NCBI GenBank assembly: GCA_028554645.1
Contig: JAQOOI010000076.1
Location: forward strand, 1-64,000
Reading direction: 5' to 3'
Source of the DNA: Omphalotus guepiniiformis
Lineage: Eukaryota; Basidiomycota; Agaricomycetes; Agaricales; Omphalotaceae
DNA: 64,000 nucleotides
Made by a program: the position numbers and the translations under genes. This document shows, piece after piece, positions 6,088-44,549 of the stretch; position 1 is the stretch's first letter; every line of letters begins with the position of its first letter. Under the pieces are notes generated by a model. That model ran no database searches and was not told the origin of the DNA. It was given only the letters and a program-made list of their open reading frames with translations.

Positions 6088-6184
6088 CTAGTTGGTAGTA
6101 GCTGGAACAAAACCACGGGAATACAGAGGCTGTCCAGATGGATCCTCTGATGACTCAGTCTCATTTTCTTGAGGTGGGCCTTCT

Positions 6185-7334
6185 TCAGGAGGTTCCTCCA
6201 TATCCTCGTGTATAAACTGAGCTGTCTTCTGGTAACTGAGCCAAAGCATTTGGATCGACTGACACTCGACCTGATAGAAATGTGTGATGATTCTGCTGCA
6301 AATACTGCAACCATCTCTCTATAGGAGCACGCCATACACGGAAATCCTGAGTAGCTGCTAGATTGTTGTCGGTTTCCATTCCCTTGCGCCGCATAATCAA
6401 CACATCACAGTGCTCAGGCAGCAGAGGTACCTTTGCATGGAAAGAGGCAGTGTCTCTGGGGAAATTGCATGTATATCCAGTATATTTATACTGTCCTCCC
6501 TGCACCTGCCATACCTGGACCAATGCATGCACTGGAGAGATAAGCATTTCCTCCATCTGGGTCAATTCTGGTAACTCTGATAGATCAGGACCGGGATACA
6601 TGAGATTTATCTCCTGGAACTTTGTACTTCGTCTACACTTGGAGCAGCGACCATGCCAATCAACATCTAAGTCAAACCATTCCTCATGACAGTGTAGACA
6701 ATGCTCCATATGGATGTTCATAATCTTCTGACGGACATTATTGAGTAGAACTTTGTCCTCAGGAGAAACAGCAGACTGATCAAGGGGTGGGACAGGGTGA
6801 TTTGGAAGAGCAGAGTCATCAAGGCCATTAGGAGCCAACTGAGAAGGAAGTTGATTATTTGGATCAGGAGTAATCTGTTCTTGTTGCACCACTCTTTCAC
6901 GTGCTCGACGCTGTGCTCTTTGACGACGTGCATTCTCATTGCAGCGAGCACATTGTTGATTGGGCCCATAGATATCTTCACGGACCCAATGTTTGTTTCC
7001 ACAACAGTAAAGCAAGCCAGAGTGATCCGAGTCAGTATAGCGCGCAGGATGATGTCTGATATTTAAATCACGAGAGCGGCATGCATTACATGTATCCAGT
7101 TCACCGAACTGATGTGTGAGAACCCAATGATGACGTCTTGTACACCACAGAGACCCCACATGCTGACTATCAGTATAGCGAGCTGGATGCCGTACACACA
7201 TAGGATGCGGATTAGTTGTTCGGGTACCGGCCACTCTATGGGCTGGAGACAGACTGAGAAACAGATGGCTGAATAGATGGGCTAGCAGCTGGAGTGGGCA
7301 AAGGAGAAGAAGACTGAGGTGGTGGTGATGGATG
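6185..7334 (-). pseudogene. Helitron N-terminal region with duplicated zinc module
   Basis: The 349-residue frame opens with GTG at 7234, so the true start lies upstream, probably beyond the Copia-A junction at 7335. The first 90 residues hold two tandem copies of one module: HPARYTDSxHxGxLxC, then HWV, then Cx2C. Each looks able to bind a metal ion. Further on, LPELTQMEEMLISPVHALVQVW begins the domain that precedes Rep in many fungal Helitron proteins. The frame is lost near 6200 at VYTRGYGGTS; the homologous reading continues in another frame as an acidic linker. The zinc-binding role is inferred from residue spacing only. Confidence 0.65.
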
Positions 7335-7724
7335 TGTTAGAATCTAAGACAATGCACTACCAGTGATACACTGATCAGACACAATGAATAGAGTTCAATT
7401 ACAGTTCACTGAGATCACTAAAGCGTTGTAATAGTAGCTTAATGCACAAGAATTGCTTTCCAAGTGTCTTAGATTTCTCCAGACATGTAAGGATTTACAT
7501 ATTGTTTGGTCCTGTTGTGTCAGGCCGCGCATGAGGCGTGAAAATGAGTGTCCACATCTTTGCGCGCGCTCTAAACACTCCAGAATGACCCTACATACAT
7601 GGTATAACTATCTACAATAGGTATTAAAGTCATTAGTATAGTATTATATGTACTTGAAGGACTTTCTAATGATATGTACAGTATTTGTATAGTATCTACA
7701 AGTGTTCTAGCACTTCATTCAACA
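7335..7724 (-). repeat. Copia-A 3' LTR
   Basis: 390 bp, reading TGTTAGAATC...CATTCAACA on the plus strand. It lies against the Helitron on its left and the PPT-bearing internal end (CAGCCCCCTGATAG) on its right. Confidence 0.93.
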
Positions 7725-7846: not shown

Positions 7847-10800
7847 AACCTAGGGGTTCTGTATTATGTGCAATCCCATCGTCTCCCTCAACTTCTCCAC
7901 CTTGGGCTTACTGAGAGGCTTGGTGAGCAAATCAGCTGCATTCTCATCAGTAGGCAGATATTCAGGAGCCATGACCTTGTATTCAACTTGGTCTCTCAGC
8001 CAGTAGTAATGCCGGTCAAGATGCTTCATCCTCCCATGATGCTCAGGATTCTTAGCAACCTTGATTGTGGATTGATTGTCCATTAGCAACCTGGCTGGCT
8101 GAGGTGTCTGGTATCCCAAATCTTGTAACAGGCTGTTCATGGCACAAATCTCCTTGCCAGCAGCAACACCTGCCACATATTCTGCCTCTGTAGAGGAGAG
8201 TGTTACAAAGGGCTGTAGCTTACTGCTCCAACTAACCACACCTGATCCAAGTTTGACCATATACCCACTAGTGGACTTTGAGTTGTCCCTGTTACCACCA
8301 AAGTCTGCATCACAGTATGTAACAAATAAATCTGGCTGGCAGGGATCAGGACCATATTCAAGCTTCATGTCCATTGTTCCCTTCAGATATCTGAATGCAT
8401 GCTTTACTGCAACCCAGTGTGCCATGCCAGGATTTGAATTGAACCGTGCCAATACACTAGCTGTGTATGCAATATCAGGATGACTGGTGGTAGCAAGATA
8501 CAACAAGGAGCCAACAGCACTAATATATGGAATTCTGGCCATCTCTTCCTTTCCTTCAGCAGTCTTTGGACACTGTGCAGTTGACAGAGCAGCTCCGAGA
8601 TTCATGGGTGTACCAACAGGTCTACAATCAGACATTCCAAACTCATTAAGTTTGTTGACAATATATTGTTTCTGACCCATATACAATTTTCTCTCCTTTC
8701 TATTTCTTGTGATTTCTATTCCCAGCAGATATGATGTAGGACCCAGGTCACGGAGTTTGAAGTGCTTTGCTAGCTCTGCCACAAAGTGGTCCAAAGATGC
8801 CTCTGACTTGGAAGCAAGAGTGATGTCATCCACAAAGACAGGTACAAAAACCTTAATGTCATCTTTCTGATAGACATATAGGTTTGGATCAGATTGGGTG
8901 CGACTAAAGCCCATTGATTGTAACACTCCTGCAAGCTTCTCACCCCAAAGTCTGGGTGACTGCTTCAAACCATACAGAGACTTGTTCAGCCTGCAGACAA
9001 ATCTAGGACCACACTCCTTGAACCCTTCTGGCTGTGTCATGAAGATCTCTGTATCAATGTCACTATTGATGAATGCATGAGAGATATCCACAGAGCGCAA
9101 ATGCAAGTCCTCAATGGCAGCCAGAGCAAGAATAGTGCGGATTGTAGTCTGTCTCATAGTAGATGAGAATGTCTCTAGATAGTCAAAACCAGGTCTTTGG
9201 CTGAATCCTTTGGCAACAAGTCTAGCCTTGAACCTTTCAATGGATCCATCAGCCTTGTGCTTTATCTTGAATACCCATTTAGATCCAATTGCTCTCTTAT
9301 CTGGTGGAAGTTCCACAACATCCCAAGTGCCATTGGTGAGGTGTGCATTCATCTCCTCCATCATGGCCTCCTGCCATTGTCTGGCATTAGGTCCATCCAT
9401 AGCCTGCTTGAATGTCAAAGGCTCTGGACCATTGTCAGTCATGATGTGGGCTTCCTCCATATTATCATCATCATCTGGCACATCTGCATCCTTGTTCCGC
9501 TTGGGAGCAGGGAGGTTCACTTTCCACCATTCACCAGGAGCCTGTCTCTTCCGCTCAGACCTACGGAAAGCAATTGGTCTATTATCTACAAGAACATCCT
9601 CAGGTGGTTCAATCTGTTCCTCCTCTGCAGAACTATCATTGTCATCAGCAGGTTCATTATTCTGCTCAGGGCCAGTATTGTCTTGTTCTGTAGAGGACTC
9701 ATGGTCAGGTTCAGGTAATGCAGGGTCATCTGACTCAGAGTCAGAGTCAGAGTGAGGATTATCATCAAGAGGAACATAGGAAGTATTGGGTGGTGTACTA
9801 GTTGAAGGTTTGGAAGGTGAAGGCTTGGAAGGTGGTTGTGAAGATCCAACTTTATAAGTGTACCTCTCATCAAAGTCAGCTCTCTCACTGATCACAACCT
9901 TCTTAGTGACAGGATTCCAGAACCTCCATCCCTTCACACCATCTGGATATCCAATGAAGATACACCTTTCCATATGGGATCCCAAGTGTTTCCTCTTATC
10001 CTTCTGAACATGCACATATGCAACACAACCCCAGACCCTCAGATGATCCACCTTTGGTTTCCTCTTGTACCATCCCTCATAGGGAGTGCAGTTTGGTACA
10101 GCAGATGTAGGGCAACGATTCCACACATGAACAAGTGCAGCCAGGCACTCTACTCAAAATGACTTTGGTAAACCAGACTCTTCTAGCATTGCAACAATCC
10201 TTTCTTCCATCACTCTATTTGCTCTTTCAGCAACACCATTCTGTTGAGGCCTATTTCTGACAGTGTATTGACGCTCTATTCCACAGCTGTCCAGAAATGC
10301 AATGAACTCCTTTGATATGTACTCTCCACCTTTATCACATCTAAAGATTTTGATTTTCTCTCCAGTGGTGTTCTCAGCCCAAGCTTTGTACTTCTTGAAT
10401 GCATCAAATGCATCACTCTTCTTCTTCAGAGGAAGTGCTGCACGGAAGCACCACTTGTCATCAATGAATGTGATCCAGTATCTGTATCCACTAGGAGAAT
10501 GTACACCAACATCATGGAGATCAGAATGAATGAGGCCCAACACAGTATCAGCTCTGGTGTGTGAGGAATGAAATGGATGTGCATGCATCTTGCCAGCCAG
10601 ACAAGGTTCACACACAGGATCTGGCTTTGCATTAGAGTCTAGTTTCAAGCCCTCTGCCAAATTATCCCTCAACATGCGCAATATATCATCGTGCCCATGA
10701 TGACAGAAGCGCCTGTGCCACAGCTTCAGATCCAGAGGTAGAGTTGTTGTCAAACAGAGGCTTTCAGACTTATCTATAGTATGTCCATTCAAGTATCCCA

Positions 10801-12473: not shown

Positions 12474-13966
12474 TAATAGCAGCGTAATGAGCACTCTAAG
12501 ACGTAGGAACTCGTCTAAACTCAAAGGTTGCCTTGTAAAAGCGAGTGTAGTCTGGCGTTGGCAAAGATTCCGCACGCAGAAAACTGACTAAAGTCGAGCT
12601 AGACTGTTGGAAAGACTATCTGAACTGTAAGATCACCGTCTAGACCCTTCGACGAGTACCAGAAACAGCAAACAGACAGACACAGACAGACAGACACAGA
12701 CAGACAGACACAGACAGACAGACAGACAGACAGACAGTTCAAACACAACAGATGTTCAGATATTTAGCACTCTATTAAAGCACTGCAATTCCTAATAGTC
12801 CGCCTCTACCAGCTCGAAGAACCGGGGCCTGACGTTCACAATCAAGAGGCCTTCTGCGATTTAACGCTCTAGAAGATACGTAAAGTTCTCCAATTTGGCG
12901 GGCAGTCGTAACCTGGGGCGCTCGACCCTATACATGACAGTATATGTACTCTACTGCTTGTAAGTATTTCATAAATAGATAGAAAACTGAGTGGAGTAAT
13001 TAAAAGGAACAGAGGGATAACATCGAGTATAAAATGGATATAAACAGAAACAATATGACTGAGTTGGGTAAGTAGGCACGTCTAGAGGGTAATTATGTGC
13101 AGTTCTTGGGTATATATGTGTAAGTATTATGTTTTAGTGATGTTTTTGGTACATCTAGACCCTTCTTATCATGCGCTCGAGCCATTCTAAACGAACTACT
13201 CCTATGCATTTCGTTATTATTCATCTTCGTAACTGTTTTACAGTGTACTTATAGGGGCGCCGAGGGCAGTTTCTAGTCATTTATCCCGTCGGGCTTCCGT
13301 ATTTTCTCCTATTTCGACATCTAGACCCCATAGCACCTCGTAGATATACCAATATCCAGCGCTCGAAGGTCAATTCTGTCATTACTTTACTAATAAGTTA
13401 TTATACAGTCATCGAGACTGATCATTTTCATAGCTTTGACCATCTAGTATCTCGGAACGGAATCGTTGATCATATATTTCCGATCATAAAGCGTTATCTC
13501 CAGTATATCATCAATCTGCAGGTTCTAGGAGGTCGGCTAAGTTTGAACAAACCATTTTGATGGCTCGGCGATACCTCTAGCTTTGTCCTTTCGACATTAT
13601 CGAGGCTCATGAGGCTATTACGCCTGTGTGTGTGTAGTTTCTTCCTTCCTAAGTCCCGTGGATTACACAGATACTTGAATAGCGACTTCCAGACGAAGGG
13701 CTCTTTGCCAGGCAGGGTGGGTCTGACCATACTGTACAGTCTCGCAGCAGGTAGTTACTTCGCCGAAGGTCTAGAGGCATATCAGCCATAAGGTCTTGAT
13801 GCATACTCGTACATCGTAGTCCTTTCACTTCGAGCCTTTAACTATTCGTGTTCTATGTTTTAGCTAGCACTATGGGACATAGTCTAGCCCTTTATTCCCA
13901 TCATATTCACAGTAGAAATCGTTTAATTTCAGGTATTTCAGGTGTGTATGCGTTTTCAGCGCAACA
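12474..13966 (-). repeat. Gypsy-1 3' LTR (1493 bp)
   Basis: A near-identical copy of 26075-27581. It includes a CAGACAGA-type microsatellite at about 12670-12737, 12-16 bp shorter than in the partner. No coding frame of note was found in it. Confidence 0.93.
12668..12737. repeat. CAGA/CACAGA microsatellite in the LTR
   Basis: An imperfect tandem of CAGA units with interspersed CACAGA. The 5' LTR copy (about 26270-26352) has one extra block of repeats, which explains most of the LTR length difference. Confidence 0.85.
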
Positions 13967-13979
13967 TCTCCCCCAAACC
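13967..13979 (-). other. Gypsy-1 polypurine tract
   Basis: On the element's sense strand this is GGTTTGGGGGAGA, directly before the LTR start TGTTGCGC. It is the expected primer site for plus-strand synthesis. A near copy lies inside the cargo region at 16913-16925. Confidence 0.85.
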
Positions 13980-13985
13980 AAATCT

Positions 13986-14001
13986 AGACCGTCCCCGGTC
14001 T
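13986..14001. promoter_or_regulatory. PPT-associated hairpin upstream of gene A
   Basis: AGACC-GTCCCC-GGTCT: a 5 bp stem with a six-base loop. Three further examples (16935-16948, 50583-50598, 58799-58816) keep the loop or a close variant, while the stem differs on both sides so that pairing is retained. Confidence 0.6.
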
Positions 14002-14060
14002 GGTGATCGGTCAGTCATACACCCAAAGATACATTCTAAAGCTTCGCAGACAGCCTGTTG

Positions 14061-14070
14061 ATTATATAAT
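14061..14070 (+). promoter_or_regulatory. Possible TATA element of gene A
   Basis: ATTATATAAT about 60 bp downstream of the hairpin and about 410 bp before the start codon. A likely 5'UTR intron, GTGAGTCG...TTTTCACTCAG (14349-14422), lies between them. A similar donor and acceptor arrangement is visible in the Gypsy-3 copy at 59091-59220. Confidence 0.4.
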
Positions 14071-14478
14071 ACTTATTCACACACATCTCAGAGTTCGCCG
14101 AAGCAGTGGTACACTGTTCATTGCTTTTTTTTTGCCGGTCTATGCCAATCATCAAACTTCAAACTCCGACCAAAATACTCTCGGCCAGTTGTTTGCCTTC
14201 GGCAATTGCCGTAGGTTCTTTTCAGGCAAGTGACTTTCCGTCTCTTTTCCTCTTTCACGTTTCTTATTCAGTTTCTTGCTTCTCTATTCTTTCTTTTCAC
14301 GCATCTCTCAGCCTTTCACTGGTCCGTGCGCCGTGGGAACGTGGTCAGGTGAGTCGTTCCATAAGTAAACGGACTTCAACTTTTTCACGCCCATTCTTCC
14401 TTTCTCTCTATTTTTCACTCAGAGTGGCTCTAGCCTTCTGTTTTTCTCTATACATACTTGTTCTTTTCTTTTCTTCTA

Positions 14479-16399
14479 ATGGCGCGAACTACCGGCAAAG
14501 CTTCCAAAGGGAAGGGCAAAGCAGCCTCTTCTTCTCAAATTTCGGCAGTGGCCAAGAAAACTCGAGCCGGTCGAAAGACCGCGCAGATCAACCCTCACGA
14601 ACAAGCCAATGAAGTCATCGCATGTATTGTCGACGTCTATCGTCGTTACTTTGATAAACCACGAAAGAATCCCCCCAAGGTCTCAGAAATGACCAAGGCC
14701 GTGGAAAGTGCCACTCCCTTCATGGTATGTTGTATTTCTTATAGTTTTAATCTTTCATTCTTACATTTTCTCTTCTAGGATACTCTCTTTGAGCACGTCG
14801 ACTTCGACATCGAGGATTTCTGTCCGCATGTGCGCCCGGTGTGGCTAGCTTTAGTGCGACTTTGCAACCCCCTCGAATCTCGACTCCCATCTCTTCACAA
14901 GACTGGTTGGTATATCTCGAAGGACGATCGACAGGAGAAACATAGTCTCGAGCCTGTAAGTCCTTATTCCACCGTAATCTTTTTAATCTTATTCAATATA
15001 ATTTCCTAGTTTCACGACTTCGATACCATCCTCAGCGACGATTGTGGCGACGACGATACCGTTCTTAGCAACTCAGAGGATGAGGTCCTCGAGTCTGACG
15101 ACGAGTCCGTCCAAGTCAAGCCTGAGGTTCGTTTTCTTCTTCCTATTCCCTTCAAATTTCTTTCTTATATCCTTTCATATTCTAGCCTGTTCTGACTTCG
15201 AAAAAGCGAGCGCTCGAGCTGCTAGAAGACGACGACGACATGGATCTCTTCTCTTTTAAGAAGCCTCGCGCGTCCACTCCTTCCAAAACACTCAAGACTG
15301 GTCCACCCGTTCGCGCAGTGAAGCCCAAACCGAAGCCCAAGCCTAAGGCAAAGGCCCCGACTCCCAAAGAGCCATCTCCTGTTGCTAGCGAAAGGTCGCC
15401 GACCCCTGCTCCTGCTTCATCAGCGAGGGCTGGTCCTTCTCATCAGGTCTCCGAGGCCGGCCTCTTCACACATCCTGCTAGCGACACGGTCTTCAACCTT
15501 GCCGACTTGCTCCATGCAACTCGAACCATCGACGCAGTAAGTCTCTTTCTTATTTATTTTATTACTCTTTCATTTATCTTTTATAGCTCACTGGCAGCTT
15601 GCCATGTACGCGATGTACCGCAGCTCACGCAGCAGAGAAGTGTGTCCCGCCCGAAATACAGAGCACCTCCTACAAATGCGCCGTCTGCTTCAAAAGCAGG
15701 CAACCTTGTTCATGGACCCTGACGCCGGCTCGTGCCCTCGAGATGCGAAATACGATCTACGGGTTGGCTCGTCAAGGTTCTCATAGTAAGTTTAATCATT
15801 TATTTCTTTTTATTTAACATCTTTTCTCATTTCCTCCTTATTCAGACCTCGGCGCAGAAGTTATTGGTCTCGTCGAGAAGATCTCTGTATACGACCAACT
15901 TCGCCGCAGCGTCTTGGACCTCGCCGACAACGCCAACAAGCTTCGCGAGTCCATCGAGCGGGACCAGGAGCACCTTCGTGGTTCAGTCACCGATCCTACC
16001 CTTCTTTTCAACATTCTTCATCGTAACGACCCTTCATTCAAGGACGAAATCGAAGATTTGAAGATGATAGGCGCGGGCTTGGGCTGGGACATGTCGGTTT
16101 TGGATCGAGACTCGAGCTTGGTGAAAACGGAGACTGGTTTTCAGATCCAACTGAGTTCGTCGCGCCTTCCCCTCGACTTCTCTAAATCCGACACTCGCAG
16201 CACCATCGAGCGCATGGTAACCTCGGCTCTCGTGCCTCTTCGCTCTTCGGCGAATGCTTCATCTTCCCGGGTACCTGCGTCGGCTAGTTCTTCCTTTCCA
16301 TCCTCCCTCCCTACCATTACGACACTCAACACCGCCCGTTCCCCGGTGGAGGAGGAAAGCGTTGGTCGGATCCTGGCAGAGGATAGTCCGGAGAGGTGA
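14479..16399 (+). CDS. Gypsy-1 cargo gene A: putative Zn2Cys6-like protein, antisense to gag-pol (six exons)
   Basis: Exons: 14479-14724, 14779-14955, 15010-15126, 15186-15536, 15587-15785, 15846-16399. All introns are 50-60 nt with GT...AG ends; intron 3 has the weaker donor GTTCGT. The joined frame is fully open, about 547 residues, ending TGA. Residues 1-35 are basic (KASKGKGK, KKTRAGRK). Two acidic stretches follow around 155-215, then a Pro/Lys-rich run (KPKPKPKPKAK). The cysteines at 304, 307, 316, 328, 331 and 338 give Cx2Cx8Cx11Cx2Cx6C, close to the fungal Zn(II)2Cys6 cluster. The C-terminal third is charged and helical-looking (VYDQLRRSVLDLADNANKL). A DNA-binding regulatory role is an inference from the cluster. 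It is not gag, env or a known retroelement enzyme. Confidence 0.75.
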
Positions 16400-16912
16400 C
16401 TCGGGATCTTCGTCGAGGCGTAGCCTACAGTCTTCGGACTTTAAATAATATTTTCATTACATCGCAGCAGGGAGTCTCTTTATAGAGCTCCAAAATCATT
16501 ATATCTAGCAAGGGTTCTCTTCATAGAGGCCCAAATATCTTTGTTTTTCATTTCTTGTACCATGTACATAGAAATCTCGTGGCCTTAGTGCCAAATAAAA
16601 GCTTTCATGTTCTTTCTTTATGTGTGAATCCATTGTTAAGTTCAAATTTAATTTAATATCTTTAAGATTGCCTTCGTCGAGGCTGTAAGTATGGACTCGA
16701 CTTAGAGAAATCCCAGCTCGAAGGTAATAAGTAGTAACTAGACCCCTTTATTTATAAGTCTCGTGCCCTTACTTATCACTTCTGTGCCTCAGGCACTTAT
16801 TTGTTCGTTTCAACCAATCTTAGATGTTGATTTATTGAAATCTAAAACACTTTAAGTTTCGTTTTTATGAAATCTTTAGAAATTTCAAAATTCTATGTCC
16901 TAGATGGACTCC

Positions 16913-16925
16913 TCTCCCCCAAACC
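16913..16925 (-). other. Internal PPT-like tract between genes A and B
   Basis: It has the same 13 bases as the LTR-adjacent PPT (sense strand GGTTTGGGGGAGA), but lies 2.9 kb inside the element with no LTR beside it. It could prime a second plus-strand start or be a relic of how the cargo was assembled. Confidence 0.65.
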
Positions 16926-16934
16926 AAAAGAAGT

Positions 16935-16948
16935 TCAGCGTCCCCGCT
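16935..16948. promoter_or_regulatory. Hairpin upstream of gene B
   Basis: CAGC-GTCCCC-GCTG. It has the same loop as the hairpin at 13986-14001 but a different, still self-complementary stem. It lies about 100 bp before the gene B TATA candidate. Confidence 0.6.
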
Positions 16949-17159
16949 GCATATCTCGGCTAGTCCTTAGTTAAGTCCAGGGTGCCTTAATCAGTCGGGC
17001 ATGTTACTTCGTCGAAGGGACCAGGAGTTCCGCTTTCAGTCAGAAAAGTATAAAGGAGGGTCGCCGAAGGTGGGTCCAAGTTATCAGTACTCTTTAAGAC
17101 CTTCAACCTGCATTCTCGACCTTACTTTCGTCTTCTTCTCGTTCATATTTCATCGTCAC

Positions 17160-18484
17160 ATGGCTCGAGGATCCAACAAGACCTGGCCCGAGAGGGATCA
17201 ATGGTTAAAGGAGACTCAAGAGGCCATTACTGCCGCTCAAGCCGTTCAAGCCTTCCCCAAAGCCAGTCCCAAGCTTCTAGGACCAGTCGTGACGGCTCTA
17301 GCCGATCATATGGTTTGTTTATTATATTCTTCAGGCTTCGTCGAGCTCATATTTCTTCATAGTCAAAGCCTTTGAATGCCAAAGTGGTGGCCAAGGATGA
17401 TATCGCCTTTGATACCTTCCAGAAAGGACTCAACACTGTGATAGCTATTACAGAGATTGATGGGGTAAATCGTCCCTACCATCTAAATGGGCTCGAGGAG
17501 TTCTTTGCCAAGCTCGAGGTGCTTCGACAGCCCACTCGCAAGCGCAAGGTAACTCTCCTCTTTCCTCATTAATCTTTACAAGCTTCATTCTATACTCTTC
17601 ACAGAACGTTAAATCTCCTCTTATCATCGAAGACGATGATGATGATGATGAGATCGAGTTCGTCGGAGGTCGGATTGCTTCTACTCCAGTAAGTATCCAT
17701 ATTTCTTAGGTCGAGACTCCGACTTGACCTAAGTTTAGGACTATAAAGCCGGACTCGCAGCCGCATTGGGTCTTTCTGCATCCATGCATGCCCCTTCTCA
17801 AGAATTAAGCCTTCCACCTGGCCTCAAGTTCAACAAGAAGGTCAGGGTAAGTGCGGTGTCTTCTTATCCATCATATTATAACTTCGCCGAACGTTCAGGA
17901 CGTCGCGAATCGTTCCTCTACTCTTTCATTGGCCCTCGGCGATGTACCTGGAATGGATGTACGTTCTCGTTCCTACCTCAAGGCCATGTATTACTTATCA
18001 GTTGCTCAGGATAACATTGCAGCTGCCAATGGCAAGCGCATTCGCCTTGAGCAACCCATTTCCGATCTTCGTGAGGATATTGAGGGTAAGTAAGCATGGG
18101 TTCTCCCTGTCTCGACCCTACTGATCATATTGACCAGAGGATAAGACCCTACGAGAAGCCGCCATTGCTACAACTTTCCGTCATATCGCGCTCACTCCAT
18201 ATCTCGAACTGCCCAAGCTTAGCGTCGAAGCTTTACGCTCAGTTCTCAATTTCCTTCGTACCGAACAAGTCACTCTTCAGCATGCTGTACATTTCCATGC
18301 CAATCAATACCAGTTCGTTGTTAAACAGATGGACAACATTCAACGAGAGCAATTTAGTCGTCTCTCAGTCGAGGACAAGCAAACCGCTGATTCTTCATCT
18401 TCGGAGACCCCTCAAGATGCTACCATGGAGGAGGCTGGATCTAGCTCAGCTGATACCACAGCTACCAACTCTAGCAGTGCCTAA
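17160..18484 (+). CDS. Gypsy-1 cargo gene B: conserved protein of unknown function, antisense to gag-pol (six exons)
   Basis: Exons: 17160-17312, 17363-17548, 17605-17688, 17739-17846, 17899-18085, 18138-18484. The introns are 50-56 nt with GT...AG ends. The joined frame is open for about 354 residues and ends TAA. I recognise no domain. Visible features: an N-terminal segment beginning MARGSNKTWPERDQWLKE; an acidic run (EDDDDDDEIEF) in exon 3; a long, probably helical C-terminal part (VLNFLRTEQVTLQHAVHFHANQYQF); and a Ser/Thr-rich tail. It converges tail to tail on pol, 191 bp apart. A homologue with matching exon sizes and phases lies in Gypsy-2 at 43790-50389, which argues for selection. 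Function unknown; a host-interaction or regulatory role is speculation. Confidence 0.78.
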
Positions 18485-18675
18485 GTAAGTTTCGTCGATC
18501 CCCGTAATCTAGTTCTTTCTAACTGAATTGTTGTGAGAATAGGCGCTAGACCCTGTATTCAGAGTCTCCAACCTACTTTACACTCCCAACTCATGATATA
18601 GTTCATATACCTTCATACATATAACTCTTTTGAGTTTCTTATTACTGTCATTACTTCGAGCCTTCAGAATATCGA

Positions 18676-21600
18676 TTAAGTACCACTTCGACGCAATAGA
18701 ACAAACTGTTTATTGCTTCTAGTTCGCACTCCAGTGATCTCTTCAGGTTCTGCGCTTAAATCCCTCTCAGGAGAAGGATGATCATCTTCTTCATCAGAAT
18801 CTTCTTCATATTCCTCATCTCGAGGCATTCTTAAGTTTGGAATGGAGTCAAAAATGTAATCTCGACTTTGTTCGTCGTAAGTATCCTCATCTTCGTTCAC
18901 CATACGTTCTAACTGTTCTGCAGTAAGGTCTATGAGGTCTAGCACGTTCGTAGGTAGGTCTATAGGCTCATATCTTGCAAAATGCGGCAGTACGCGAAAG
19001 GCAGCAATCTTTTCTTTAAGTACCGAGCCATCCATTTCAGCAATAATGTAGGCACCACCCTTAGTTCGTCTGATGACAATCATAGGTCCTCTATACCTTG
19101 GATACATCTTCCTGTCCAAGCTCTTCTCAATTTGAGTGTTTCGAACTTGTACTAGAGTTCCAGGTTTGAAATCATAGTCTTTTATTACATGTTCATAATC
19201 TTGTTCAAACTTCTTCATAGTTCTTCTTTTCTCTTCGTCGACCCTGGAAATCATGCCCATAACATGAGTTCTATGCTTTGCCAAGGCTCTAGCCCTGTAG
19301 CCGATCAATTCTTCGTAAGTAAGGACTCTATCTGGTACTTCTACCAACCAAGTTGATTCTATAAGGTCTAGAGGCAGTATTGGTTCTGCTCCAGTTACTA
19401 AGAAGTAAGGAGAACATCCAAATCCTCTTCTAGTTGTTACTCTGTCTGCCCAAAGCACATGTTTGAGAAACCAGTACCAACGTTTAAGATCACCTCCCGT
19501 TGCTTTTACTAAAGCTTGACGGATATCAAAGTGTGCTCTTTCAATCTTTCCATTGGCTTGAGAATTATAGGCTGAGATACGAATCCCTTTAATCCCATAC
19601 TTCTCTTCCAGCCATTTCAACATTGCAATCATGCTTCTAGCATTATCAGTTACCACTTCTTGAGGGCAACCCCATCTACATATTATATCTTCAAAGAACC
19701 ATTCGCCTAAGGCTCGAGCTGTCTCATCTCTGATTGCTCGTCCCTCTGACCAAGAAGATAAAGCACATCGGCCATGTACAACGTTCTTACAGCCATTACT
19801 AGCCGGAGATACTTTGAATACATCCACATGTACCTTCTGGAACAGAGAAGGGGTGTGAGTAAGGGTAGGTGGTATTTTCAATAGCGCTAGAGCTCGATCT
19901 TGACATGCCTGACACGTTTTCACGAACCAGTTGACATCTCGCTCCAGTTCTGGCCACCAGAACCTCTTTTCTATCACAGCCTTCGTAGCATACATTCCTT
20001 TGTGTCCCAAATGATCATGAGCACTATGCAGGATATACATACGGCGTCCTTTCTCAACTATTAGCTGATGTTGTCCACCAACTTCATCATTTCTTCGATA
20101 CATACGTCCTTTCTTGTCGACGAAGTATCGAGACGCCTTCGAAAGAAATTTCCTTCGAGCTCGAGCATCCATCTCATCCAGCATATCCGATTCAGGATGC
20201 ATTAAGAACTCTTTTATTCTTGGTAGCAGTCGATCTAGCTCAATCCCTATGGTAGTTCTATGTTCTTCCATATAAGGATGATCATGTTCCCATTCTTCTG
20301 TCGATTCAGGAGCTACTAGAACCTGTGCAAACTGGTCTAGAGTCTTTCCTTGTTCAAATAGTATGTGTTCTCGCCAGTAGGCGAATCTTCGTTCTTCTTC
20401 AATTAATTCTTGAATATCATCTTCGAAGTCTTCTACTGACAAGGCTAGACCCTGTAAGTATCCACCTCTAGAGTCTATCTCATGCTTAAAGTCTTCAAAG
20501 TCATAAGGGCCCTGCTCATTCTCATCTTCCTGACGAAATCGCAATGGTTCCCCATCATCTTTATCTAGATAATCTTCCTCTTCAGCAGGTAATCTCTCTG
20601 TTGGTTCACTACCCGGTGGTGGTCTAGATAGTCCATCAGGTCCATGTATAGACCCCTTGATATGTACCAATTCAAAGTGATACTTTCTTATTTCTTCAAT
20701 CCAACGATTAATAGTTGCATTTGGGCCACTACTTGGGTTATCTAACATCCCTTTTATGTAGCTAGCATCCGTTTCTACAGTTAGATCCCTACAACCATAA
20801 GTTTGGTAGTAAGTATGGGCTAGCGCGAGCTTGAGCCCATATAACTCTCTCTTAGGCTGTGAGAACCTTGCTTCTCGTTCATTTAATGTTATAGATCCAA
20901 AGTAGTTATAAAACTTCTTCTTAGGATCTTTAGGATCTCTTTGGTATAAATAATATCCTACAGCCATCCATGATGTATCCACTGCTAGAGTAATGCCGCT
21001 AGACAACGAATAATCAATTGGTTTCAATGCAGGAGCATTTCTAATGCCTTCTTTTAATAGCTCGACGGCTTCTAACTCTTTTTCTCCTATCTCAAAGGGA
21101 ACTTGTGAACTAGTCAACCTCGTGAGGGGTCTAGCCTTCTTTGCATAGTCTTTAATGAACATCCTGAGTTGTCCTGCAGTCCCCAAGAATGATTTAACGT
21201 GTGTACGCTTCGTCCATTGAGTTGCATCCCATGACAAAATGGTCTTAGCCATCTTTTCTTCAGGTAATTCACCCTCATACGAGACTCTATGTCCCACAAC
21301 ATTTCCTTCTGCGCAGCAAATGAATGCTTTAGGTCCTGAGAAGGTTCCTCCAGCATGTTTCATTCATTGAACAATTCTATTCATATTTTGCATGTGTTCC
21401 CATACAAATCTTCTAATTCCACTGTTCTCAGGAATTGTTTCGTATCCTCCACCTTCGAGCTCATATCTAGTAGACGGTCCTTTCACTGGAACATCATCTA
21501 TATAGGGTCTCGTTATGTGTGGAATTTCTTCTTTCAATATATAAGTGATATCATCATGATAGATTGGTACTGAGTTAGTCCAACCCATTGGTAGTTTTAC

Positions 21601-22749
21601 AAGTCGGTGAGGGCCAAAAGGAGTTTGAAACGTCGTCAAATCCCTCGATCCCTCATCTACGAGCCTTTCATCATAGCCTACAAATACATCTAGCAGTCCA
21701 ATACAAGATCTGCCTGCAAAGCTTCTAGCTATATCAGCCGTAGCAGGAGGTATGCCTGAGTGTTGAATTGTGACCTTATTTAACGGTTCTAGACTGTGTA
21801 CTAGCCGTAAACTTTTGCCATCTTTCTTCAAAACACAGAACCATCTGGATCTATAAGAGGAGCTCGAGGGTTCGTAGACCCCAGAATCAATCTTATCTTT
21901 AATTATTTTGCATACATCTCCATAGATCCCGGGCGGAATAGGTATATTCCTCTCGACCCATGGAGTATGTGGTATAACAGGAAATTTAACAGGTGGAAAG
22001 AACTCTGTCTTGAAAGTTCCCCCTTCTGAAGCTTCCCATGCAAAACCTTTCTCTTGTACCTTCATTAAGTGATGTACTAGCTTCATTTCTTCAGGCCATA
22101 AGAAGTCTTCATCATGATTCTTCTCAATAATAGCTTTTCTTTCTTCATTATAACGTTCTCCAGGTGTGAAGTCTGGTGGATTTGGTGACAAAGTCGGCAT
22201 CCCTTCTAGCGGGTCACCAGTTATGTGCCTTTCTATCCTGAACTCTTCTGGAAGCGTAGTTTTTACTGGTTTCACTTTTATTGCCACAGGTTTGTACTTA
22301 CTGCCGAATACTGCAAACGGTTTTCGAAATCTAGCCTTACTTCCACGAGGTAGGATCCTACAGTGTAAGTTTGGCATTCGCCGAACCATTTTCTCAGTTC
22401 GAGCAGCCGTATTGAATACAGTAGCTGCCTCGAGACCCTCATACGCAGGTCTCGAAGGTACTTTCTCATCCTGTACTCTAGCTTCACGCCAAGTACAATA
22501 TACCTTGCAATTATCTTCGGTTATTTCCTTCTTCATGTAGCTTTTAAGCATAAGGGCAGCCTTGGGATCACTCTCTTCAATGCTAGCTCGAGATGCATAT
22601 ACATATGCCTCAGCCTTCTCATTATTAGAGAATGTCTCCTCATCAGGCAGTCTATACCCAGTTATTTCATATCTACCATCTTTTCCTAGGCCAATACTTA
22701 CAGCAACCTCTCCCTGATGGCCTGTCAGATCTTCGAGGATTGAAAATTT
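18676..22749 (-). pseudogene. Gypsy-1 pol: reverse transcriptase, RNase H, integrase (one in-frame TGA)
   Basis: The frame is open from the overlap with protease (about 22749) to 18676, except for a TGA at 21364-21366. RT: SRWFCVLKKDG, LLDVFVGYDE, FGPHRLVKLPMGWTNS and the catalytic YIDDV near 21490. After the stop comes the RT connection, then RNase H with AVDTSWMAVGY, ELYGLKLA and ETDASYI. Integrase has the H2C2 zinc region (HDHLGHKGMYATK...CQACQ), then VDVFKV, TDNARSM and GKIERAH as the D, D, E residues. No chromodomain follows; the tail is acidic. In Gypsy-2 the stop position is AGA, so a point mutation is the simplest reading. One read-through codon would give a roughly 1350-residue product. 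Confidence 0.92.
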
Positions 22750-24095
22750 CCATCTTGTGGACTTCTTTCCTCTTCTGCAGCTTTTTGGGTAGCTGGTGTA
22801 AGTTTTTCTTCTCCTTCAGGCTTCGGTCCAATACCTCTGCCTCGTTCATATGTTCCCATTGTGCAGGTCATGCCAGAATTAGGGTCTCGAATCGTTAATT
22901 CTTGACTTCCATCCTTATTTGTCTTAATATTACTTTCTGTTAAAACATCGAAGGGTCTTCCCAACAGAACTTTATATGGAGCTTTATCCATCACATGAAT
23001 CTGCATATAAACGACTATTTCACCAAAGGTAAACGGTACGTTCCTAGCTAGACCCCTGGTTGGGCTTAGCTGTCCACTAGCACTTTGCATATGGATAACA
23101 GTCTTTGGATCCCAGGCTAGACCTAGTCCCATTGCTATATCCGTGTCCATTGATACTATTTGAGACCCACTGTCAAGTATACACTCGACTGGCCCTTGTT
23201 TATTAATATCAGGAAAGATAACTCGCAGACTATCACTTGGTCTGGCTACAATGATAATCTTTCCTCGTTCAGATGGCGGAACATCTTCGAGATATTGTTC
23301 TACAACATCTACATGGACTAAAGATCCTGTTTGCAAGCCGCTCGAGCCTTCGAGGACCTGTACAAAGCAGTCTCCCCATGCTAGATCATCAATATCCACT
23401 ACTTGAGTGTCATATGGCAAAGAGATAGAATCCTCAGGTAGATCAGTGTCTTCTGGGTTTTCCTCGTCTCTAATCTCTTGTACAAATGCCTTTAGAGGCC
23501 TCTTATATACTCGACTATTCTTAGTCTTTCTATTCAATATTTTCTGCAAAGTAGGGGAAATAGCAATTACTTCTTCCATACTTATAGGTATTTCACTCTT
23601 TAATATCTTCGTTGCAACTTCTTCAGCAACTCCAGGCCTGTACACGCCACTTTGTAGTTTGTATTCAGGTCCCTTAGGCAAATCAAATGTTACTTTCTTC
23701 TTCGCCGAGCCTCGAGACTCTTCTATATCCACACTAGGTGTTCTAGCGGTCACTGGGGACGTTTCTAGACCCTCCTTTGGTGGTTGGATTCGTCTCTCAA
23801 TAGGCTTTATGTTATCAAATGGTCTTTTATTTAAGTTTTTCGTTTCCGGGACGTTATGCGCGGGCGCCTCTTTGCCTAATTCGGGCTCAGGGGTTTCCAA
23901 CGACTCATCCGTCATGTTTATGGGTTTATACAAGTGTCGATTAAAGTTCTTAGGACGCTCTAGCACCACTTCGAGGCGTCTAGACGTCTTTCCAGCATTA
24001 TCTTCCTCCGGAGCTTTGCTGGGAACAGGGCTAGGTAACTTCTTTGCACCAACTAGCACCTGTTTAAGCTCCTTCATCGAAAGTATTAGTTTTTC
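22725..24095 (-). CDS. Gypsy-1 protease region (separate frame)
   Basis: About 450 residues from the first ATG at 24077. The frame is open back through the gag stop, and is entered from gag by a -1 step. The retropepsin signature ILDSGSQIVSMD is at about 23160-23185, with ARNVPFTFGEIVVYMQIHV and VLLGRPFDVLTESN following as the second half of the fold. The N-terminal 230 residues are a charged linker with no known fold. The frame ends at TGA 22725-22727, inside an overlap with the RT frame that contains AAATTTT (22743-22749) in exact -1 slip phase. Confidence 0.85.
   Translation of the reverse strand, partial: EKLILSMKELKQVLVGAKKLPSPVPSKAPEEDNAGKTSRRLEVVLERPKNFNRHLYKPINMTDESLETPEPELGKEAPAHNVPETKNLNKRPFDNIKPIERRIQPPKEGLETSPVTARTPSVDIEESRGSAKKKVTFDLPKGPEYKLQSGVYRPGVAEEVATKILKSEIPISMEEVIAISPTLQKILNRKTKNSRVYKRPLKAFVQEIRDEENPEDTDLPEDSISLPYDTQVVDIDDLAWGDCFVQVLEGSSGLQTGSLVHVDVVEQYLEDVPPSERGKIIIVARPSDSLRVIFPDINKQGPVECILDSGSQIVSMDTDIAMGLGLAWDPKTVIHMQSASGQLSPTRGLARNVPFTFGEIVVYMQIHVMDKAPYKVLLGRPFDVLTESNIKTNKDGSQELTIRDPNSGMTCTMGTYERGRGIGPKPEGEEKLTPATQKAAEEERSPQDGNFQSSKI
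22743..22749 (-). other. Candidate -1 frameshift site, protease to RT
   Basis: On the minus strand this is A AAT TTT in the protease frame, a full X XXY YYZ heptamer. Slipping back one base enters the RT frame seven codons before the protease stop. The same heptamer is kept in the separate fragment at 51879-52072. Confidence 0.6.
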
Positions 24096-25753
24096 GAACC
24101 TCCAGGAGTGTTTATAGACACTTGTCCATCAGACAAGGCCTTATACTCAACTCCCATCCTTTCTAGCTGTTCAAGTACTTGTACAGCCAATGTATCAACT
24201 TCATTATTTTCCATTCCCAGGGGGCTAGCTTCGTGCAGCTGCACCTGGTATGCATTTGGCATAGATTCTACTTCATATAAGAACTGATCTGGGTGGACTT
24301 CTACATCCCATCCCTTCTCTTTTGCAATTTTCTCAATCTTTTCTTTTCTAGTCTCTTTATCTCCTTCATTTATCCAAGGAAGTGGCGAACCATCCTTTAG
24401 TTCCCATCTATTCCTCGCATTTCGCTTCATCCATCCCTTACTTACAAAGTGATGTTGAGCTGGACAGTCTTGTGAACCATGTCCTCTGCCTCCACACATG
24501 GAACAAGCTAGATCACGGGCAGGCATAACTCTACTCGTGTCCAGAAGTCCTCTGTTAGGCATAGAAGACATACCAACATTCGTCGAAGACGCTAGACCCA
24601 TATTTCCAGTGTTTCTACTTGACATTTGTACCATCCTTATCAAGGACTTCATCATCTCTTGATTCTGGTTCGTCATAGTGTCTAGCTTCTGGTGAATGGT
24701 CTTAATTTTCGTCTCGTTATCATCTACTGTGTACGAAATCTTTCGTTCCCACTCATTCTGTGCTTCTTCCTGCTTTATAGCAGTTAACCTGTCAGTCATA
24801 GATGGTCGGCTCGAGAGGGGTCTAGCTCCAGTGTTTATGACACCTGGTAGGCTCCAACTCGCTCCTACATCATATAATTCCTCAGGAGGAATAGCACATA
24901 CAGCTTTTGCAGCTTTTACAACTTGCTCTAGAGTCCAAGGATCATCTCTTCGACGAACCCCTTCTCCAGTACCATTAGTTGATAATTTTCGAATAACTCT
25001 CTTTCTAAACTGTTCTTCTAGAGCAGCTAGATATCCTTGTACTGCCTCGAAGTTCGAGATGACAGCATGTCCACTCATTAACTTCTTTGCTTCAATCTGA
25101 TACGCCCTCGAGAAGGCCAAAAGCTTCTCTAGTTGACCAGATGGCACTAGCATGTACTTTTCAATTACACTCATGAGCCTCTGCTTCGAGCCATATCCGT
25201 CCTTATCACTAGAATCCGGATAGCAGTCAAGCAAGTCAACTCTAAATGTTTCCCAATCATCTCCTGAAGCTGCATCAAGCGTAGCTAGCTCCTTTCTCGT
25301 CTCATAAGTCATGTATTTCAAGGCTAGATGGATCTTCGCCATCTCAGATCTGATATTTAAAGTCCTAAAGATTTCCTCTAAGTCCTCGAGCCATCCTGCA
25401 AGTTTCTCAGGACGATCTCTATCAAATATGGGTGCCTTCTTTGAGACTTTCGGTAACTGCTCGTTTTGTACTTCGGCGAGCACCTCAGCAGGTAGCTCTC
25501 GTAAGTATGCATCTACTACTTCAGTTTGTTGAGGTCGGCGCGGCCGATTTCCTCCAGGATTTCGATTCGCCGCAGCCTCATCATTATTTGGTTGTCTCTG
25601 CTGCTGTGGGTTTCGCCCTTGACCAGCAGGTCCAGCAGTAGCATTATTTCCTTCATCAGGCATGTTTGTAAAATCAGAGAATTCAGGACTTGGTAGTCTT
25701 ATATCTCCTATAACTTCGTTTGTTCCTCTATACCTCTCTCTAGACAGAGGCAA
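24086..25753 (-). CDS. Gypsy-1 gag
   Basis: A 555-codon frame. It has no ATG in its first 30 codons; the first is at 25663 (NMPDEGNN), and the frame is open further upstream to about 25920, so the start is uncertain and a leader intron is possible. The body has the helical gag-like core (PEKLAGWLEDLEEIFRTLNI, YKALAY-type segments). Near residue 416 it has one zinc knuckle, CSMCGGRGHGSQDC (Cx2Cx4Hx4C). It ends with a TAA preceded directly by GAAAAAC. It forms the particle and binds RNA. Gag and protease look intact in this copy. Confidence 0.85.
   Translation of the reverse strand: MPLSRERYRGTNEVIGDIRLPSPEFSDFTNMPDEGNNATAGPAGQGRNPQQQRQPNNDEAAANRNPGGNRPRRPQQTEVVDAYLRELPAEVLAEVQNEQLPKVSKKAPIFDRDRPEKLAGWLEDLEEIFRTLNIRSEMAKIHLALKYMTYETRKELATLDAASGDDWETFRVDLLDCYPDSSDKDGYGSKQRLMSVIEKYMLVPSGQLEKLLAFSRAYQIEAKKLMSGHAVISNFEAVQGYLAALEEQFRKRVIRKLSTNGTGEGVRRRDDPWTLEQVVKAAKAVCAIPPEELYDVGASWSLPGVINTGARPLSSRPSMTDRLTAIKQEEAQNEWERKISYTVDDNETKIKTIHQKLDTMTNQNQEMMKSLIRMVQMSSRNTGNMGLASSTNVGMSSMPNRGLLDTSRVMPARDLACSMCGGRGHGSQDCPAQHHFVSKGWMKRNARNRWELKDGSPLPWINEGDKETRKEKIEKIAKEKGWDVEVHPDQFLYEVESMPNAYQVQLHEASPLGMENNEVDTLAVQVLEQLERMGVEYKALSDGQVSINTPGGSKN
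24089..24095 (-). other. Candidate -1 frameshift site, gag to protease
   Basis: On the minus strand G AAA AAC directly precedes the gag TAA. The codons AAA AAC can slip to GAA AAA, entering the protease frame, which is open here. It is close to the classical AAAAAAC but its first base differs. Confidence 0.5.
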
Positions 25754-25920
25754 GTTGTTTCGAACAGGGATTCTACTACGACGAGGGGGTCTAGACTCGA
25801 ATATTAATTCTTCTTGTCCAGCCTCACGGGAATTTCGTGTAGTTCTAGGTTTTCCACGACGGCTAGAGTCACTAATCTTTGCAAGAGACTCGAATTCGAA
25901 GTAGAATACCTTGAAGTGTT

Positions 25921-26052
25921 ATGCAAATGTACAATTTCCACTTCGAGAGGCAAATCAAATCGTCAATTCAATTCGCCGAGGTCAAAAGACAGCGATATTT
26001 AGACACAGAGGTCTTTCAAGAGTAAAACTCGATATAATTGTTTTCTGAAACT
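25921..26052 (-). other. Gypsy-1 5' leader
   Basis: Untranslated leader between the PBS and gag. No gene seen. Confidence 0.6.
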
Positions 26053-26072
26053 ACCCCTCGCGGTGGGCTCCA
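26053..26072 (-). other. Gypsy-1 primer binding site
   Basis: TGGAGCCCACCGCGAGGGGT on the minus strand, 2 nt (TC) after the 5' LTR. It starts with TGG, as expected for pairing with a tRNA CCA end. The same 20-mer and spacer occur in Gypsy-2 at 61066-61085. The tRNA was not identified. Confidence 0.8.
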
Positions 26073-26074
26073 GA

Positions 26075-27581
26075 TAATAGCAGCGTAATGAGCACTCTAA
26101 GACGTAGGAACTCGTCTAAACTCAAAGGTTGCCTTGTAAAAGCGAGTGTAGTCTGGCGTTGGCAAAGATTCCGCACGCAGAAAACTGACTAAAGTCGAGC
26201 TAGACTGTTGGAAAGACTATCTGAACTGTAAGATCACCGTCTAGACCCTTCGACGAGTACCAGAAACAGCAAACAGACAGACACAGACAGACAGACACAG
26301 ACAGACAGACACAGACAGACAGACACAGACAGACAGACAGACAGACAGACAGTTCAAACACAACAGATGTTCAGATATTTAGCACTCTATTAAAGCACTG
26401 CAATTCCTAATAGTCCGCCTCTACCAGCTCGAAGAACCGGGGCCTGACGTTCACAATCAAGAGGCCTTCTGCGATTTAACGCTCTAGAAGATACGTAAAG
26501 TTCTCCAATTTGGCGGGCAGTTGTAACCTGGGGCGCTCGACCCTATACATGACAGTATATGTACTCTACTGCTTGTAAGTATTTCATAAATAGATAGAAA
26601 ACTGAGTGGAGTAATTAAAAGGAACAGAGGGATAACATCGAGTATAAAATGGATATAAACAGAAACAATATGACTGAGTTGGGTAAGTAGGCACGTCTAG
26701 AGGGTAATTATGTGCAGTTCTTGGGTATATATGTGTAAGTATTATGTTTTAGTGATGTTTTTGGTACATCTAGACCCTTCTTATCATGCGCTCGAGCCAT
26801 TCTAAACGAACTACTCCTATGCATTTCGTTATTATTCATCTTCGTAACTGTTTTACAGTGTACTTATAGGGGCGCCGAGGGCAGTTTCTAGTCATTTATC
26901 CCGTCGGGCTTCCGTATTTTCTCCTATTTCGACATCTAGACCCCATAGCACCTCGTAGATATACCAATATCCAGCGCTCGAAGGTCAATTCTGTCATTAC
27001 TTTACTAATAAGTTATTATACAGTCATCGAGACTGATCATTTTCATAGCTTTGACCATCTAGTATCTCGGAACGGAATCGTCGATCATATATTTCCGATC
27101 ATAAAGTGTTATCTCCAGTATATCATCAATCTGCAGGTTCTAGGAGGTCGGCTAAGTTCGAACAAACCATTTTGATGGCTCGGCGATACCTCTAGCTTTG
27201 TCCTTTCGACATTATCGAGGCTCATGAGGCTATTACGCCTGTGTGTGTGTAGTTTCTTCCTTCCTAAGTCCCGTGGATTACACAGATACTTGAATAGCGA
27301 CTTCCAGACGAAGGGCTCTTTGCCAGGCAGGGTGGGTCTGACCATACTGTACAGTCTCGCAGCAGGTAGTTACTTCGCCGAAGGTCTAGAGGCATATCAG
27401 CCATAAGGTCTTGATGCATACTCGTACATCGTAGTCCTTTCACTTCGAGCCTTTAACTATTCGTGTTCTATGTTTTAGCTAGCACTATGGGACATAGTCT
27501 AGCCCTTTATTCCCATCATATTCACAGTAGAAATCGTTTAATTTCAGGTATTTCAGGTGTGTATGCGTTTTCAGCGCAACA
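26075..27581 (-). repeat. Gypsy-1 5' LTR (1507 bp)
   Basis: Partner of 12474-13966. It is longer because of the microsatellite. The four substitutions seen between the copies all fall in CG/TG pairs. Confidence 0.93.
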
Positions 27582-40850: not shown

Positions 40851-41190
40851 AAGATGAGAATGTTCATAAAGGATTATGCTAAGAAAGCTAGACCTTTAAC
40901 AATCTTAACTGGAGATGTACCGTTGTTGTGTCAAAAAGCCTTTCAGTACTGAAATCTATCAGATTGAAGTAAATATTGCATGTTCAAACATTGGAAATTG
41001 AACATAAAGGACTAGAGTCACCCCAGACTGCTAGTTAAGACATGAAACATACTTGTATCCACCATGCCTAAGTGTAGAGATTGCTACAGTACTGAATCTG
41101 GGGCTAAGCAACTGTGACCAATGGGTTATACAAAGAGATACTAGTTATGCCTCTCCAGATGTGTTGAAATACCAATGTTCCATACCAGAT
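40851..41190 (+). repeat. RT fragment joined to partial Gypsy-2 LTR, inside pol
   Basis: 40852-40925 encodes MRMFIKDYAKKARPLTILTG, then a truncated LTR (from TGTTGTGTC near 40927) interrupts and ends at 41190, after which pol resumes with AELEAVEMIKDG. This is the right arm of the palindrome. Confidence 0.8.
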
Positions 41191-43587: not shown

Positions 43588-44549
43588 TAAACACACTATA
43601 TTTAAACAAAGTAGCTAGTTAGACACTGAAAAGTGACTATCTGACTGCAGGTGAAAGTAAAAAGTGGGTAACAGTAGTATGCACTACTAAGATAAACATA
43701 AAGGGTGTCTGAAGATGTCCTATACAGTGTACCAATACCGTGTAAACTGCCTATCAATGATACTGAGATGTCCAGATGTAACATTAAAGTCAGAGAATGT
43801 CTGCAGATGGGAAGGCATGGAAAGGAGCTGGATCATCAGCAGTATCTGGACCAGACTCCAAGAGACTCTGGTTGGCCCTGTAAGCCTTCTCCTTCTGTCT
43901 CCGGAGCAATTCCAGAAAGGAAAACTCCTTGTAGGTGAATCTGTACTGAGAATGATGGTACTGAATGACATGTTGGTGAACACTGAGCTCAGTCTTCAAA
44001 AAGTTCAAAATTGATTGAAGAACCTCAGGAGAGAAGTGGTCCAAGTCCATGAAAGGGAACAGAGCAGTGATATGAGTCACAATCTCTTCTCCACTCTTCC
44101 GGAGTTTGCACTCATCTGCAGGATAATTGAGTTAGATACTCGAAAAAGCCGCAGATTGGGTGAATACTCACGATCTGTCTCCTCTCTAAGGTTGACAATT
44201 GGGTTCTCAATACGAGGCTTCTTCATGACAATCACCCTGTGAGGCTCAGGAATAGGTCCATTCTTCAAATCATTTATGATTAGTATATGAAACTGCAGGA
44301 ACAACTCCAGATGGAATCAAAAACTTACATCTTTGGGTCCAACTGAGGTAGCCTGCTAAGTTACCATGGTACATCAGTCTAGATTGCTAGAGTCCTTGTT
44401 ATCCTTATTGGAAGCATGGATAGACACAGAAAGCCCAAGAGAAGATCCATCTGCCATCTGAGGAAAGAAATACCATGTTGAGAATTGAGTTAGATACTCA
44501 GTGACCAAGGAGTTAGATACTTACAGTAACGTCTCCGTCACCAGTAATG

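Follow-up and report, generated by a model that had tools for sequence, protein, structure and literature searches.

Antisense accessory genes recur in the long terminal repeat (LTR) retrotransposons of plants, and no settled function is given for them (PMC7264820). Among plant Ty3/gypsy elements, additional antisense open reading frames (ORFs) of the aORF-3R type are known from Grande (gene23), RIRE2 and Retand (TRP28) (PMC7264820; PMC11963269), and in fungi the Boty-like gypsy elements of Botrytis carry brtn, likewise additional and antisense (PMC7264820, PMC8365987). Extra ORFs are also common to different retroelement types in rotifers (PMC5408684), and env can be swapped in (endogenous) retroviruses, template switching being a proposed route (PMC10536682). 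Here we analyse positions 1-64,000 of contig JAQOOI010000076.1 of Omphalotus guepiniiformis (GCA_028554645.1), a stretch of DNA that we call the window, and a Ty3/gypsy element within it whose zone between pol and the 3' LTR (13967-18675) holds two genes, A and B, on the plus strand, antisense to gag-pol. Comparison of copies across the assembly (42.5 Mb, 80 contigs) indicates that two old alleles of gene A are exchanged repeatedly among near-identical elements.

Antisense extra ORFs being already known, it is the dimorphism and the exchange for which we know of no precedent; the present case also adds selection, introns matching across families and what amounts to a natural allele-swap experiment. 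A preliminary description of the locus knew of no such multi-exon antisense pair in fungi. Among the listings of open PMC papers searched, neither an antisense spliced pair nor a dimorphic, exchanged antisense gene in fungal LTR elements was seen; a fungal antisense gene as such is known from brtn. Like A and B, brtn is antisense and sits between pol and the 3' LTR of a fungal gypsy element; in this comparison, made by description only, one gene is mentioned there as against two here.

Results

Gene A (14479-16399) has six exons (14479-14724, 14779-14955, 15010-15126, 15186-15536, 15587-15785 and 15846-16399) that join into 547 fully open codons, and gene B (17160-18484) has six exons (17160-17312, 17363-17548, 17605-17688, 17739-17846, 17899-18085 and 18138-18484) that join into 354; all lie on the plus strand, and each sixth exon includes the stop codon. 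In the window copy the introns of both genes are 50-60 nt long and GT..AG without exception. These models confirm those of the preliminary description, which had proposed two antisense six-exon genes with such introns and about 547 and 354 residues, and their frames join. By DNA search, the 5' part of gene A and gene B were each found at 38 or more places in the genome, the window and fragments included; these counts are lower bounds. Of the other 37 gene A places, 33 were alignable and make up, together with the window, an alignment of 34 rows onto which the gene models were lifted from the window copy. L036, L043, L044 and L045 have no alignable copy and lie outside it, as does L046; L043 and L046 were used in comparisons of old backgrounds, whereas L036, L044, L045, L047, L048, L049 and L052 were examined by BLAST, and L036, L044 and L049 also by ORF list.

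Gene A occurs in two deeply diverged alleles, A1, carried by the window copy, and A2, carried by five copies (L037 and L039-L042). About 40% of bases differ between them, in exons and introns alike (introns 41-43%), with a synonymous divergence (dS) of about 2, a nonsynonymous divergence (dN) of 0.3 and a dN/dS of 0.15-0.16. In L037, A2 is a full gene of 539 residues; 317 of 534 aligned residues (59%) are identical to A1, and all five introns lie at the same columns and in the same phases. The segment that differs in the five A2 copies corresponds to 14522-16530 on the plus strand, its ends being approximate: it starts some 43 bases into the coding sequence, and its far end falls somewhere from the stop codon to about 130 bases past it. 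Around it, the A2 copies differ from the window by 1-2% in the 5' flank and 2.5-4.5% in the spacer, with a dS of 0.02-0.08 in gene B, and their pol is 99-100% identical to the window pol (in one copy over part of the query). Among the matches listed, which for pol are 40 of 134 candidates, the identities of gene B and pol show no split like that of gene A. The U3-side half of the LTR is at least 99% identical in L040, L041 and L038, which are among the best 40 LTR places; the other three A2 copies are not among these. L038 is a chimera, A2 up to exon 5 and A1 thereafter, with a shifted frame.

In a tree built from 31 rows of the gene B region (16620-18675), L013, L015 and L023 having been dropped, A2 falls in three places, one holding L037, L040 and L041 and the others L039 and L042, and the well-supported branches force at least three allele changes, gains or losses. 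Both alleles are also found on old backgrounds, about 8% diverged in gene B: L046, truncated by a nested element, has A2, and L043 has A1, the gene B beside it being known by its place and 92% identity alone. In exon 6, dS between young and old copies is 0.20 for A2 and 0.22 for A1, as compared with 1.2 between A1 and A2. Because the divergence between the alleles exceeds that between young and old copies of each, both alleles seem to predate the split of the young and old backgrounds. At L046 2179-3672, an LTR 99.7% identical to that of the window, with gag beside it, apparently belongs to a young copy inside gene A2 of an older relative.

Across the 34 rows the intron slots of gene A are filled in 170 of 170 cases (169 GT..AG at the lifted ends), and those of gene B in 165 of 165 (164 GT..AG) across the 33 rows covering it; in L015 an insertion keeps the row from reaching gene B. 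No intron has thus been lost from the covered stretch of the aligned copies, which fits the earlier proposal that the antisense orientation explains intron survival. The frame of gene A is open in 19 of 28 A1 rows and 4 of 5 A2 rows, that of gene B in 25 of 33. Eight of the A1 rows computed have a dS of at least 0.04 against the window copy; their dN/dS against it is 0.09-0.21 in gene A and 0.04-0.20 in gene B. Another computed row, the ninth, L010, is too close to the window copy for dN/dS. These values indicate that A and B, exon-intron structure included, have been kept by purifying selection in many copies and over many rounds of retrotransposition. The preliminary description had reckoned with passengers or misread noncoding DNA if other copies and spliced transcripts were lacking and dN/dS was neutral; instead there are 33 further aligned copies and dN/dS is low, and given the latter and the retention of introns we reject both readings.

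Two related gypsy families carry homologues. In the first, family 2, pol is 76% identical to that of the window element in DNA and 69% in protein; its gene B shares 93 of 330 residues with that of the window, with introns 1, 2 and 5 at the same columns and in the same phases. At 23 of the 28 places compared by coordinates, a cysteine exon like that of gene A is found 1.2-1.6 kb away from the gene B match (this comparison drew on 28 of the 41 gene B places and 29 of the 69 gene A rows); its six cysteines correspond to those of gene A, and one spacing differs. When 33 of 40 gene A places and 31 of 34 gene B places were paired, short fragments being omitted and some rows being partial, 26 A-B pairs resulted, with gene A identities to a family 2 copy, L050, of 95-100% in 14, 88% in one and 72-77% in 11. 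In these last 11, gene B is 91-98% identical, and at least 95% in seven. It looks as if gene A of family 2 is largely two-class too. Spacer identity in the low group is 78-84%, which means that a portion of the spacer varies along with gene A. A second and different gene-A-like cysteine protein lies near the L050 element (8354-9125, minus strand), perhaps in yet another gypsy family.

The other related family lies in the window itself. Its pol (41035-43587, plus strand) consists of two adjoining ORFs with 67-70% amino-acid identity to the first pol, and its gene B homologue, on the minus strand, is in two pieces, 43790-44259 (exons 44259-44172 and 44115-43790) and 49858-50389 (exons 50389-50237, 50180-49983 and 49923-49858), around a copia element at 44548-49859. 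Of its residues 97 of 266 are identical to those of gene B, and introns 1, 2 and 5 again share columns and phases; a search of this family for gene A at E up to 0.01 found none. Since gene B is 28-36% identical between families in protein and pol 67-70%, gene B evolves much faster than pol. TATAAA stands 111, 89 and 102 nt upstream of the gene B start in the three families, the first distance being that from the ATG of exon 1 in the window. The preliminary description called A and B cargo, a label that we abandon, as both related gypsy families have gene B and one of them also has an exon like that of gene A; because of these homologues, A and B look like old accessory genes of a clade of gypsy retrotransposons.

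The encoded proteins offer few named features. In gene A, exon 4 is acidic and Lys/Pro-rich, exon 5 holds a cluster of six cysteines and exon 6 perhaps a coiled coil. The Zn2Cys6 pattern is C-x2-C-x6-C-x5-12-C-x2-C-x6-8-C; gene A reads C-x2-C-x8-C-x11-C-x2-C-x6-C, with x8 in place of x6 in A1, A2 and the family 2 exon. Pfam PF00172 gave no match at E up to 10 for three members and none at E up to 1 for the whole protein. Thus, of the earlier 'Zn2Cys6-like' assignment the six cysteines remain, but their spacing deviates and a zinc-cluster match in Pfam is lacking. A search of Protein Data Bank sequences with a piece of gene A gave coiled coils as the best matches, none of them significant (E 0.039 and up). 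AlphaFold models had a mean confidence (pLDDT) of 59.5 for gene A exon 5 alone and of 70.7 for gene B exon 6 alone, the latter with long helices. In all three families gene B has a basic run, RKRK or KKRK, and beyond it an acidic stretch with a V/I-x-V/F-V/I motif; in the window copy RKRK is the C-terminal end of exon 2, and the acidic run and hydrophobic motif lie in exon 3. We take the basic run to resemble a nuclear signal and the motif to be like a SUMO-interaction motif, and A1 and A2 have in common a psi-K-x-E site at residue 177. From the cysteine cluster, the basic runs and the acidic motifs, A and B may be nuclear proteins that regulate the element, which is the least sure of our conclusions.

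The element that carries these genes measures 15.1 kb and lies on the minus strand at 12474-27581, between a 3' LTR (12474-13966) and a 5' LTR (26075-27581) that pair with 98.8% identity (1507 columns, 14 of them gaps). CCGG stands at both outer ends and is read as a target-site duplication of four bases; the usual length is five. On the same strand, a gag-type ORF (24086-25918, 610 amino acids stop to stop) gave no Pfam match above the cut-off; we take its C-x2-C-x4-H-x4-C motif to be a knuckle. The ORF at 22725-24128 has DUF4100 and an aspartyl protease (PF13352 and PF13650, above the cut-off). In pol (18676-22815), Pfam found RNase H and the zinc domain of integrase; the integrase region matches the Gag-Pol chain of Ty3 (Ty3-G; E 2.2e-25) and the N-terminal part matches chains of reverse transcriptase (RT)/RNase H. 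The upstream pol ORF, where the RT core is expected, had no Pfam match, and RT is presumably there from its position and a YIDD motif. A single in-frame stop splits pol of the window copy at the 21363/21364 junction. Two LTRs, a target-site duplication, a polypurine tract and the order protease, RT, RNase H, integrase all agree with Ty3/gypsy. A search of IMG/VR with pol gave three pattern matches, none of them confirmed.

A polypurine tract (13967-13982, minus strand) adjoins the 3' LTR and is followed by the inverted repeat GACCG-TCCC-CGGTC (plus-strand letters); its 11-base core, CTCCCCCAAAC, is present in 33 of 34 copies. Between A and B, an exact 16-base copy of this tract (16913-16928, minus strand) has an inverted repeat of its own, CAGCG-TCCC-CGCTG, and its core is found in 31 of 34 copies, L015, one of the three misses, not reaching the site; a sister-family copy has the core as well. 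The arms of the two inverted repeats differ and yet pair (GACCG/CGGTC and CAGCG/CGCTG), around centres of four bases, and in the sister copy L050 a close version of the box stands at the corresponding position. This is the sole exact repeat of at least 15 bases in 13967-18675. Two of 200 single-base shuffles contained any exact repeat of that length, so the case for the internal tract rests also on its place and conservation. The internal tract (16913-16950) is possibly a central polypurine tract, which would provide a second start of plus-strand synthesis. The CTCCCCCAAAC box is also seen at a third place, at 58781 in the window and in L050 (reverse strand), in a homologous stretch of another element.

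Elsewhere in the window, two inverted copia elements (44550-57874) have arms of 5310 nt that are 99% identical and 2.7 kb apart, and ORFs at 4642-7336 (minus strand) bear some resemblance to a Helitron replication protein. In the assembly, matches to the STE3 pheromone receptor above the cut-off occur on six contigs (C6, C8, C19, C39, C55 and C61), as in mushrooms that have complex mating types, if this reading of them is right; along with the short introns, they would point to a mushroom-forming basidiomycete.

Discussion

The reading that we favour, and consider probable though far from certain, is that a fungal Ty3/gypsy clade has two antisense accessory genes of its own, that the alleles of gene A are swapped among its members, that A and B are nuclear regulators and that A sets a class-specific property. 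A and B would be spliced from plus-strand transcripts of their own, and their introns would survive retrotransposition because they face the wrong way in the genomic RNA to be spliced out of it. Two routes of allele exchange are conceivable: template switching when two genomic RNAs are packaged together, and gene conversion of one insertion by another. The property set by gene A, of which we are least sure, might be, for example, which copies repress, tolerate or escape each other. If the rarer class gains, as we propose, both classes would persist. That the alleles persist on young as well as older backgrounds, and that family 2 shows a parallel, suggests balancing selection on gene A. A stricter version is possible but doubtful: gene A may be a self/non-self module with two or more alleles, through which copies of the same class, but not those of the other, restrain each other; it would be subject to negative frequency dependence, moved by template switching and either kept or newly arisen in at least two families.

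Several observations weigh against this reading. The data come from one genome, and splicing is read from GT..AG ends and conservation. A2 is represented by five copies, besides a chimera and an old copy that is truncated; the three allele changes may include losses. Some dN/dS values are higher than those given above: pairs among L033, L034 and L035 give 0.26-0.48 for B and 0.17-0.23 for A, gene A gives 0.33 between L038 and L037 and 0.32 between L040 and L041 (two changes), and young-old pairs compared over exon 6 alone come to about 0.25 in A1 and A2, and to 0.37 in B and also in A of L034. Yet every dN/dS is below 1, L033 has stops and L038 is a chimera, and decay after insertion can account for part of the higher values. 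Between families, introns 3 and 4 of gene B are unaligned. The gene A classes of family 2 are drawn from BLAST identities, and the gap between them is blurred by three unpaired gene A places, at 83, 85 and 85%. Finally, the role of nuclear regulator draws on sequence patterns in A and B. Pfam found no significant domain in either gene, the best for B being PSME4_C (E 0.076), in keeping with the preliminary description, which had recognised no domain in gene B.

The chief rival is neutral recombination, in which A2 reached the young elements from another element lineage and both alleles persist by chance amplification, diversity itself not being selected; it is quite possible, if short of probable. 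Retroelements recombine readily, the counts are small and L038 is itself a young recombinant with a shifted frame. It does not, however, sit easily with at least three allele changes on the gene B tree, with the presence of both alleles on young and older backgrounds, with the similar pattern in a second family, or with the lack of a comparable split in gene B and pol among the matches listed (for pol, 40 of 134 candidates). It may instead be the nucleotide difference that matters, as an escape from homology-dependent silencing, because antisense transcripts can pair with genomic RNA into double-stranded RNA. Gene A mRNA would indeed be antisense to genomic RNA, A1 and A2 have diverged about as much in their introns as in their exons, and antisense transcripts of retrotransposons have been discussed as sources of small interfering RNA (PMC7264820). 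Since gene B, in the same orientation, has no such split and the protein is conserved between the alleles (dN/dS about 0.15), we regard this as rather unlikely.

Were gene A a trans-activator, with each allele suited to an LTR promoter of its own, the cysteine cluster, the weak and non-significant coiled-coil matches and the inverted repeat adjoining both polypurine tracts would find a place. Such matching is improbable given the U3-side identity of at least 99% in L040, L041 and L038, the copies among the best 40 LTR places, and a 5' flank of gene A that differs by 1-2% only. That A and B were captured from the host, or are noncoding DNA mistaken for genes, and drift along as passengers might be argued from their want of named domains; this we consider excluded for practical purposes by the low dN/dS, by introns and frames kept in many copies and by sister-family homologues that match in their introns despite low identity.

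If the favoured reading holds, with old alleles exchanged among near-identical elements, it would suggest that selection among the transposons of one genome can maintain diversity. The function of gene A becomes testable, because A1 and A2 elements differ in little else, and the locus offers a test of why introns survive retrotransposition when antisense.

The locus resembles the plant aORF-3R genes in that these are antisense, lie between pol and the 3' LTR, occur in most copies and are suspected to encode nuclear or DNA-binding proteins, and the aORF-3R of Grande has its own promoter (PMC7264820, PMC11963269). It departs from them in having two genes of six exons each, one of them in two exchanged alleles. 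A and B gave no Pfam match at E up to 1 to the family of TRP28 (PF04195), and the main text of PMC11963269 never uses the word 'intron'. As in env swapping, one gene near the 3' end is replaced by a divergent version while gag-pol stays; unlike env, gene A is antisense, bears introns, is not recognisably envelope-like and alternates between two persisting alleles within one family. The HBZ message of HTLV-1 is spliced. HBZ, too, is antisense; it is nuclear and acts in the life cycle of its retroelement (PMC11963269), as is predicted for A and B. Its antisense promoter lies in the 3' LTR (PMC7264820), whereas A and B each have an upstream region of their own, and gene A, unlike HBZ, is dimorphic. 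The resemblance to self/non-self systems is of another kind. In the heteroimmune modules of lambdoid phages and the mating-type idiomorphs of fungi, diverged regulatory modules sit on near-identical backbones and are kept by self/non-self effects. The highly diverged versions of gene A likewise sit on near-identical backbones, but we saw no operator-like segment beyond gene A that varied along with the allele. Should gene A prove to be a self/non-self module, the retrotransposons of a single fungal genome would harbour a balanced polymorphism of the kind known from phage heteroimmunity or from mating types.

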